In this document: piece after piece, positions 24,647 to 55,171 of the stretch
Position numbering within the stretch: the first letter of the stretch is position 1
Layout: the number at the start of each line of letters is the position of its first letter
Assembly: GCF_008831285.2 (NCBI RefSeq)
Contig: NC_045148.1
Location: forward strand, 13,108,802 to 13,172,801
DNA from: Nymphaea colorata
Lineage: Eukaryota > Streptophyta > Magnoliopsida > Nymphaeales > Nymphaeaceae
Reading direction: 5' to 3'
Length of the DNA stretch: 64,000 bases
Made by a program: the position numbers and the translations under genes
The notes under the pieces: generated by a model
The model's database searches: none
Told to the model about the DNA's origin: nothing
What the model saw: the letters and a program-made list of their open reading frames with translations, nothing else

Positions 24647-27600
24647 TCAATTAACCAGTGTAGACATCGTACATCTTTCTTGTCTGCATCCATAAAATTT
24701 TGGGGCTAGTTCTGTCAACCACAGTGGATCAATCCGGGTAGTGTTACGAACGTACTTTTGTTGTGTTTGCACCAGCTCATTAAAAACAATGCATTCCGGT
24801 TTCGTTCCAAATAGTGCAGATGATGGGTGAATCTTCACGGTCAAGCTACTTGCCAAGGCCCTGAAAAAACACAATCACCAGCCAAATCAAACAGGAATTT
24901 CTAGATTGTTACTAGTGAGAGATGAAAAGATGTAAAAGGACAAAGATGCCAAATTGCAGCGTCGAAAAGAACATGTAATATATACTCTAAACTAGAAAAT
25001 ACATCTATGCATACTTATAGGAACCATCTGCTTGTCTCATCGCTGCATTGAGAAAGAAAGAGGCAGCAAGACATCTGCGGAACTGAAGCATATCATCCCC
25101 ACAAGAAGAAACCTTCATGCCTAAGTCTTTAACATGCCGACAAATTTGCCTGCAAAAGAGAAGAAAATAACCAAAAATATCATTTGCCAGATAGAACATA
25201 CTGTGGACTTGTTTCATGGAAAGGGAAAAGATATCCAAGTGATTTGGAGAGAGAGATGTAAAAGCATAAAAGCATATCCTCTCCACCACCCACCAAGAAC
25301 TCTTTAAACCAGATAAAATATTATTTTCAAAGAAAGTCTAGGTTGTTAACCAAACTGATAATTAAATGCTACACATCTCCCTCACTTGTACACATAGGAT
25401 AAGACCATCTTCATGAAACTTCCAGCATTTCGGCATGTGACAGGAAATTGGAGCCAGATGTGTATCCATGTCAAGACACTAAATCTAAGGTAATTGAACA
25501 CACAACCATGTCTTTGGAACTCTCTTCTGCAAGGTGAATCTATTACAATCAGGGTCATCTTCACATTTTCTATACAAGCAAAAGCTCCACGAGGCATTCC
25601 AAACATGATAGAGCTACAGTTTGGATCAGCAACCAAGTGGGATGTTTATAAAGACGAGAAGTTAAAAGGACGGATTCACCAACATATTATAAGTTTATAA
25701 CAAAAAACGCGATTGGGCTGACCTGTGAATGTCTAGAGCATGCTTCAATGATCTGCTATTGATGAAATTATCCTTGCACCATTTATTCAGTTTCCTTTCA
25801 CTAGATCTGCTTTTCACATCTGTGGAGACTAACCCCTCGGTCTTTTGCAAACTGTCTACAGCAGCTCGAAATACATTCACCAAAGTAATGTGATCTCCAT
25901 CTGAACTTAAAAAACACTTTGTAGCGGCCCTTGCCTGGGAATGCAAATCAATTTATCAACTGTTTCAAATCCAAATGCAAACACATGTGCAGCCCATGAA
26001 TGCCTGCAGCCTACATGTCTTGAAGCTACAGAACCTTATCTCAGATGGAAGCAAGCATTGTGGCTTACCTTAATAACAACCCAGTACCTAACATGCATAT
26101 ATTTGGATATACATTGCACTGATAATTGGTAGTTTTCATTGATTATATTTCTATGATTAGATAAAGTTGCACATATGGTCTGAATTAGATGAACAATACA
26201 AACCTGTTATCTCCTTATTCATTCATAGCAAGCTGGGACCTATCAAAGGCACATGGTTATACAATCTTAAATATCTCTGGTTCTCTAATACAGACATATT
26301 TCAGGTAGTGAATCTTCATAGGCACAGGCAGTTGTATGGAAATCAGAGGCCAGGAAACTGAGGGGCTGGAAGCCTCTCCCTTAACTCTACCGGCTATGAA
26401 AAGAAAAATTCTCTGCTGATACCTTGGCAGCATTCTGAATTGTGAATCTAATTGGGGTGTCATAGCGTGGCCCTGAGAGACTGCAACTTACACAACTCCC
26501 AAAAAAAAAGTCAATGGACATTAATTTCCTTGAAAGGAATTGATGTTTACTTATGCTCACAGGCACAATTGGGGCAAATGATCATTTCCATCAATTTAAT
26601 CCTATGGTGAGGATAACTTGTTCTCTAAGTAGGTGAAAATTCTGAATTTTGTTGGCTCTCCTAACTTGATAACAGGACCCTTAATGGACATGCAGCAAAT
26701 GTTACAGCAAAACTGAGCAGGCTTTCATATGATTATTAGAACACACCAAACATGGACAACCTAGAAATTAAAAGATGGCTGTTAAAGATGTAAAAGAGTG
26801 TTTCTGGAATATTAGACAGTTAGGGAGGAGGTCTTTAAATAGTTTCTTATAGTTGTTGGACTACTTATGTAAAGTCTCCAACCCTAATCTCTTTTAATAA
26901 AGATTAGGGTTACGTTAATGATTGATTCTTTTTCGGCTCTCTCTCTCTCTCTGCCCCACATGATCAACATGACGTTCCACTCACCGTTGAAGTATGACTT
27001 GTGAAGCTGCTGTTTGTGGGTGCAGCATGACTTGTGAAGCTGCTGTTTGTGGAGTCTATATGCTGTTTATGAACACAGTTTTGATATGATCAGAATCTTT
27101 TATAGATCGTGGATGTAAAATCACTAAAAGTGAGGCTGCGTGAGGGTGGAATGCTGCTGATTCTTAGTACAAGATCTGTAAGTTGATATCGTTGATTCCT
27201 TTGTCGTGTGGACAGCTAGTTTTATGTGAAACAGCTGTAGTTATAAGTAGCAGCAGTCTCCAGTCGATTGGGGAAGAAATTCCAGTCATCGGCTGAAACA
27301 GTTTATTCAATATAGAAGCCTCATTTATAAACTTTCAGATCTGATATTGAGTTTCCGTCATCGGTTGCAACAGATTATTCTATATTGTTGCCTAATCTAT
27401 AGAGTTTCAGATCTGATATTGGAGTTATAAGTTTCTTTTCCAGATTCATCTGTGTTGCAATTGATATTTTTCTAATATTAGTGATCTTCTTTATTTACTA
27501 TGGCTGTGTTGATAGATCGTATGTTTCGGGTCCGGATCCATACCCGACCCTCCTTGTAGCCCGTTTTGGGCACTACTTAAGTCATGTAACCCTAATCCTT

Positions 27601-55171: not shown

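Follow-up and report, generated by a model that had tools for sequence, protein, structure and literature searches.

A DEAH-box helicase gene with antisense Copia elements in two large introns and its compact, near-identical copy on a second contig

The window, the whole stretch of 64,000 nucleotides that was analysed (G000:C11:13108802-13172801), carried a helicase gene that is one of two near-identical copies. In the most probable reading, which we favour, Copia elements were inserted after the duplication, the coding sequence was constrained, and the large introns are transcribed through and spliced out whole. We propose that contigs C11 and C8 came to share a gene-bearing block by duplication. 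In the C11 copy, Copia C would then have been inserted, followed by Copia B within C and later by Copia A. These antisense insertions, placed in introns 9 and 5, would have doubled the length of the gene, and its coding sequence would have been kept under purifying selection. By precedent from other plants, the polymerase would read through the elements and the spliceosome would take out both large introns as whole units. The elements would be silenced in place, like those of other plant genes with heterochromatic introns. For either copy, we infer the transcription, splicing and chromatin state. By analogy with rice and Arabidopsis (PMC7145194, PMC10241880), heterochromatin within the introns and alternative polyadenylation may plausibly occur here.

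The helicase gene was located on the minus strand, from 55171 to 24647, and spanned 30,525 bp. Twelve exons were joined in phase to 2223 nt, which encoded 740 amino acids plus a stop. GT-AG borders were found at all 11 introns, and the phases were consistent. The sizes of introns 1 to 11 were 3188, 214, 3094, 735, 6912, 497, 1024, 620, 11291, 573, and 154 bp. A preliminary description of this DNA had reported twelve exons in phase, an intact coding sequence that kept all DEAH motifs, and introns of 11.3 and 6.9 kb. The model bore this out, with an uninterrupted 740-aa frame, the helicase motifs present in the translation, and lengths of 11,291 bp for intron 9 and 6,912 bp for intron 5. The exons and the two large introns were as follows.

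55047..55171, minus strand: exon 1; start ATG at 55171, open, weak-looking donor, 95% identity to the C8 copy
51812..51858, minus strand: exon 2; GT-AG, the DHX8 alignment starts at residue 43
51517..51597, minus strand: exon 3, GETGSGKTT; splice model and DHX8 alignment
48206..48422, minus strand: exon 4, helicase motif; splice model and DHX8 alignment
47062..47470, minus strand: exon 5, DEAH and SAS; splice model and DHX8 alignment
39946..40149, minus strand: exon 6, LVFLTGQ; splice model and DHX8 alignment
39288..39448, minus strand: exon 7, TNIAETS and the start of QRSGRAGR; splice model and DHX8 alignment
38078..38263, minus strand: exon 8, the remainder of QRSGRAGR; splice model and DHX8 alignment
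37226..37457, minus strand: exon 9, HA2; splice model, Pfam, and DHX8 alignment
25723..25934, minus strand: exon 10; splice model and DHX8 alignment, second genomic copy at 97%
25015..25149, minus strand: exon 11, start of the OB fold; splice model and Pfam
24647..24860, minus strand: exon 12, OB fold and stop; splice model and Pfam
40150..47061, minus strand: intron 5, 6,912 bp; 1,831 bp when Copia A and one target-site duplication are taken out
25935..37225, minus strand: intron 9, 11,291 bp; 1,184 bp when Copia C/B and one target-site duplication are taken out

Judged by its sequence, the gene is a DEAH-box (DHX8/Prp22-like) RNA helicase. The Pfam domains DEAD, Helicase_C, HA2_N, HA2_C, and OB_NTP_bind were all detected above the cut-offs. 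The DEAH motifs were followed by HA2 and OB-fold domains, as expected of a DEAH/RHA RNA helicase, and similarity to solved members extended over the whole core. The top solved relative in the PDB was DHX8 (652.7 bits), which was aligned in two stretches, residues 43-196 and 238-727. Because of this coverage, 10 of the 11 exon junctions were located within aligned stretches; the first junction (residue 41.7) was outside. The protein thus resembled DHX8/Prp22-type DEAH helicases in its helicase core, HA2, and OB domains, from residue 43 to residue 727 of the alignment, and the similarity indicates that the helicase fold is already settled. We presume a link between this gene and Arabidopsis At1g27900. 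The latter is listed as atPrp22-3 in PMC545797.

Exon 1 was the weakest part of the gene model. It was outside the PDB alignment and had a weak-looking donor. In addition, comparison with the C8 copy gave 4 nonsynonymous and 2 synonymous changes in this exon, so its coding status, which we infer, was without support from selection. A start codon upstream, at 55593, was considered and rejected because its surroundings, judged by eye, were not common to the C8 copy.

Three LTR pairs inside the gene were identified by self-comparison, and each belonged to a Copia element.

41078..46153, plus strand: Copia A, in intron 5; LTRs 41078-41352 and 45879-46153, target-site duplication CAGTT
27507..32646, plus strand: Copia B, nested in C within intron 9; LTRs at 27507-27752 and 32401-32646, target-site duplication GGCTG
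26780..36881, plus strand: Copia C, in intron 9, the outer element, split by B; target-site duplication ATGGC

Copia A showed the full set of features of a Copia LTR retrotransposon. It had TG..CA LTRs that were identical in 275 of 275 bases, a 5-bp target-site duplication, and a primer site adjoining the 5' LTR. One open frame of 1461 aa held the gag, integrase, and RVT_2 (RT) domains in Copia order. In Copia B and Copia C, the frame that is unbroken in an intact Copia was broken into pieces. Between the LTRs, 6 of 246 bases differed in B and 6 of 171 in C, and C had lost the end of its 5' LTR and its primer site. B and C were assigned to Copia because LTRs, target-site duplications, and pieces with integrase before RT were present. 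All three elements were antisense to the helicase gene, each with a target-site duplication. Together they amounted to 15,178 bp, which was 49.7% of the 30,525-bp gene. These results upheld the earlier account of two nested Copia elements and one intact Copia, antisense in the introns, with Copia accounting for most of the length. They also upheld its figure of more than 15 kb of transposon, since the Copia sum alone reached it.

The ages of the elements hinged on the substitution rate chosen. At 1.3e-8 per site per year, a rice rate, the LTR ages were 0-0.52 My for A, 0.34-2.0 My for B, and 0.50-2.9 My for C. At 1.51e-9, the rate used in PMC8626473, they were 0-4.4, 3-18, and 4-25 My, respectively. 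Copia A was regarded as recent because its LTRs were identical, and it is too young for any trace in the coding sequence. Two candidate signs were tried and rejected. The antisense orientation of three of three elements carried no weight as a sign of selection, because no strong orientation bias is reported in rice (PMC7145194). The LTR mismatches of B, like those of C, comprised 3 transitions and 3 transversions, which is too few to tell whether methylation has left a footprint.

The 3' LTRs pointed toward exons 9 and 5, at distances of 345 bp and 909 bp, respectively. TATAWA had no match in the 5' LTR of any of the three elements, so an antisense-promoter reading was without sequence support. 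It is unlikely that the C11 introns act as switches, in which polyadenylation in intron 9 or 5 would give truncated proteins and the silencing of the elements would set the balance. Polyadenylation in intron 9 would yield a predicted protein of 567 aa that lacks the OB fold, and in intron 5 one of 392 aa that stops after the first half of the helicase. The frame stayed open for 13 codons past the border of intron 9 and for 99 codons past that of intron 5, and there are precedents in Arabidopsis and rice (PMC10241880, PMC7145194). However, the elements showed no excess of AATAAA in the sense of the gene (6 seen against 8.1 ± 3.1 expected). Read in the direction of the elements themselves, AATAAA was seen 9 times against 5.0 ± 2.3 expected, and there it faced away from the gene.

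The genome (408 Mb in 783 contigs) was searched with exon 10 at E values up to 0.001. Two matches were obtained, exon 10 itself and C8:14720570-14720781 (97%). On C8, all 12 exons followed one another in the expected order; their lengths were unchanged, and they aligned without gaps at 95-99% identity. The introns of this copy were GT-AG, its coding sequence was 2223 nt with one terminal stop, and the gene spanned 14,256 bp. The introns at the places of introns 9 and 5 were 1,178 and 1,882 bp. Copia A, B, and C were all absent from the C8 copy. At the site of Copia C, the C8 sequence read straight through with a single target site, which is a clean empty site. At the site of Copia A, the element was absent and 62 further bases were present, so that this site was not cleanly empty. 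The three elements with their target duplications accounted for 15,188 bp, compared to a net difference of 16,269 bp in gene length.

Because a compact intact copy exists on C8, the earlier statement that the plant must splice both large introns fails. A second intact paralogue carrying all expression had been named there as an observation against the model; the C8 copy corresponds to the intact-paralogue half of it.

Intron divergence between the copies was 0.026-0.084 per intron, with intron 3 apart, where the value of 0.178 reflected a failed global alignment. Introns 8, 9, and 11 diverged less (0.026-0.038) than introns 1, 2, and 7 (0.062-0.084), which could be the result of gene conversion or chance. 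In intron 7 of the C8 copy, at about 14717388-14717787, an insertion of about 400 bp was private to C8 and had inverted ends CCTAAGTCACA/TGTGACTTAGG. Read by eye, it showed hAT-like ends and a target duplication of 7 of 8 bases. In the region 55581-56212, the upstream sequences of the copies were little alike beyond about 400 bp from the ATG. The promoters of the two copies may differ, since these upstream regions share little.

The extent of the duplicated block was obtained by comparison of the window with C8.

15421..56212, no strand: block similar to C8 14707039-14724649, with interruptions

The similarity between C11 and C8 stopped on both sides of this block. Repeats aside, a comparison of the window with 270 kb surrounding the C8 copy listed no other matches of at least 120 bases. 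Two neighbours in the window, a GH17 gene and a long frame at 14400-15446, had no match in these 270 kb. The next-best genome match of the GH17 gene was 72%, with no second copy at high identity. The 14400-15446 frame gave no other match in the genome and no Pfam hit. Whole-genome duplication is disfavoured as the origin of the pair, because the two tested window neighbours had neither a second copy at high identity nor a match in the 270 kb of C8. For the same reason, a segmental duplication fits best with the sequence comparison. Two haplotypes of one locus, or an assembly artefact, might be suspected from exon 10, which was 97% alike. However, the dS of 0.066-0.075 and the intron divergence given above are high for alleles, and C8 is a 25-Mb contig with different surroundings, including the missing counterparts of the two neighbours. 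We consider it highly improbable that C11 and C8 are anything other than two loci.

The coding sequences of the two copies differed at 61 bases in 61 codons, with 25 nonsynonymous and 36 synonymous changes. The NG86 method gave dN 0.0147 and dS 0.0754, and YN00 gave dN 0.0154 and dS 0.0660, corresponding to a dN/dS of about 0.2 for the pair. The fraction of nonsynonymous changes (25/61) was compared to the 76% expected under neutrality (P = 3e-9). Third-position changes were 36/61 (P = 3e-5), or 34/55 when exon 1 was left out (P = 1e-5). By these counts, the pair is under purifying selection, as measured on the pair and not on the C11 branch.

Constraint on the C11 branch alone was less sure. 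This branch bears on a reading in which the C11 copy is being lost: the C8 copy would supply the helicase, and the C11 copy, at liberty to accept insertions, would be silenced or poorly spliced with a coding lesion still absent. A second intact copy exists, all three Copia insertions are in one copy, and Copia A is recent, all of which would fit. However, if C11 had been neutral since the insertion of Copia C, taken at the point estimate of its age, 49 nonsynonymous changes would be expected with a baseline dN/dS of 0.2, compared to the 25 seen (P = 1e-4). With a baseline of 0, 30 would be expected, and 25 was not clearly lower (P = 0.20). At the lower limit of the age of Copia C, neutrality was compatible with the data (P = 0.07 and 1.0 for the two baselines), and at the upper limit it was excluded. 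Had the copy been neutral since Copia C, its frame and splice sites would have escaped damage with a probability of 0.07 when indels are ignored, or 0.005 at an assumed indel rate. In addition, the C11 protein was nearer to the DEAH family, outscoring the C8 protein in all 60 listed of the 71 matched PDB sequences, in score lists that were compared by eye and contain many near-duplicate sequences. On these grounds, decay of the C11 copy is unlikely.

Among the 25 amino-acid differences, DHX8 decided 6 by identity. Five were decided for C11 (residues 341, 342, 463, 638, and 725) and one for C8 (residue 618); the DHX8 alignment, inspected by eye, gave no decision for residues 92 and 192. If anything, the transposon-laden copy seems to be the better conserved. 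A further reading would make the laden copy the conserved main one, with the antisense Copia elements tuning its dosage or truncating its product by antisense transcription or intronic polyadenylation. The compact copy would then be diverging in protein and promoter. This is distinctly unlikely in our judgement, and two constrained copies, one of them enlarged by Copia, remain the preferred explanation.

The C11 gene was compared with known systems. Plants often have intact genes whose introns are filled with retroelements, and the gene is an ordinary case of a known kind because Copia-filled long introns are well described. The rarity suggested by the preliminary description was overstated. 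In grapevine, there are 2,697 introns of more than 3 kb, which are mostly repeats with Copia 6.5-fold over Gypsy, and about 30% of the intronic LTR pairs are more than 99% identical (PMC3058033). In Chloranthus, 876 of 2,184 orthologues are longer than 20 kb (PMC8626473). The helicase gene is like the grapevine genes in its large Copia-rich introns. It is unlike them in that a near-identical, insertion-free duplicate is present in the same genome. As in Chloranthus and magnoliids, intronic LTR elements lengthen the gene, with one gene examined here.

Among the heterochromatic introns of rice, 84% include TEs or repeats of other kinds, while roughly half of the introns with TEs lack heterochromatin (PMC7145194). 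Polymerase II in Arabidopsis reads through elements that lie within introns, and at some loci polyadenylation becomes premature once the silencing marks are lost (PMC10241880). Genes with heterochromatic introns in both species depend on IBM2/EDM2 (PMC7145194, PMC10241880). The present gene resembles them in sequence, having retroelements within the introns of an intact gene. A limited literature search for intron asymmetry between duplicates gave nothing to the point. The twin pair can serve as a natural control, in which nearly the same protein is encoded twice in the same cell, once by a copy that bears about 15 kb of Copia and once by a copy free of it. Since 61 coding bases are copy-specific, RNA and methylation reads can be assigned to each copy. 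It could therefore be measured directly what intronic retroelements cost a gene in transcription, in splicing, and in the choice of its 3' end.

Other repeats were found in introns 1 and 3 of the gene.

52713..53777, no strand: hAT-type element, 1065 bp, in intron 1; 8-bp target-site duplication ATTATAAC, paired terminal repeats
50901..51294, no strand: tandem duplication, 197 bp x 2, 98%, in intron 3; the unit occurs once in the C8 copy
49706..51021, no strand: about 1.3 kb of intron 3 without a collinear C8 counterpart; includes one unit of the tandem duplication

An 8-bp target-site duplication and paired short terminal repeats define hAT elements. Both were found at 52713-53777, where the repeats were 16 bp long. 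A loose hAT scan gave 2 candidates in the gene compared to 0-2 in 10 simulations, so the scan was not above chance. Only 52713-53777 also passed with 12-bp repeats without mismatch, a stricter criterion without a simulated control. The earlier label of hAT MITE was thus retained for its hAT part; 1065 bp is long for a MITE. Both ends of the element were also present in the C8 copy, with 87.7% identity over 1,029 aligned columns, which indicates that it predates the duplication. The tandem duplication in intron 3 was as described before. The stretch 49706-51021 could be either an insertion in the window copy or a deletion in C8. A solo LTR had been described as well and was not supported, because the structural scan of the gene was not above chance. 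It gave 5 candidates on the plus strand and 2 on the minus strand, compared to 1-11 per strand in 20 Markov simulations. These candidates formed 5 distinct stretches, some within the Copia elements. The best-looking one was 52199-52415 with the target-site duplication CAAAG, and no second copy of any candidate was found within the window at E 1e-8.

The CpG observed/expected ratio was 0.40 in the helicase exons and 0.28 in the native introns, 0.76 in the GH17 exons, and 0.91 in the 14400-15446 frame. The gene (24647-55171) was compared with the regions 1-24000 and 55600-64000. Eleven one-kb windows of the gene, with the elements excluded, were lower than 30 windows outside (P = 0.0009), of which 8 were at or below 0.37. 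The CpG-poor helicase gene is a possible footprint of long-standing gene-body methylation.

Several features were observed around the gene. Just 3' of it, 21136-23342 could be an old Copia remnant, with an LTR-like pair at 21136-21350 and 23120-23342 (85%). By eye, the frames between this pair resembled RNase H and gag. The GH17 gene was located at 2692-4826 on the minus strand, with an X8 domain and two open frames, between which a (TA)39 run was found at 3978-4055. On the other side, a tandem array with a 262-bp unit (3.1 copies, 91%) was observed at 60584-61391, with (TA)n runs on its flanks. An open frame at 62309-62917 contained a DUF4283 domain, which occurs in LINE-related sequences.
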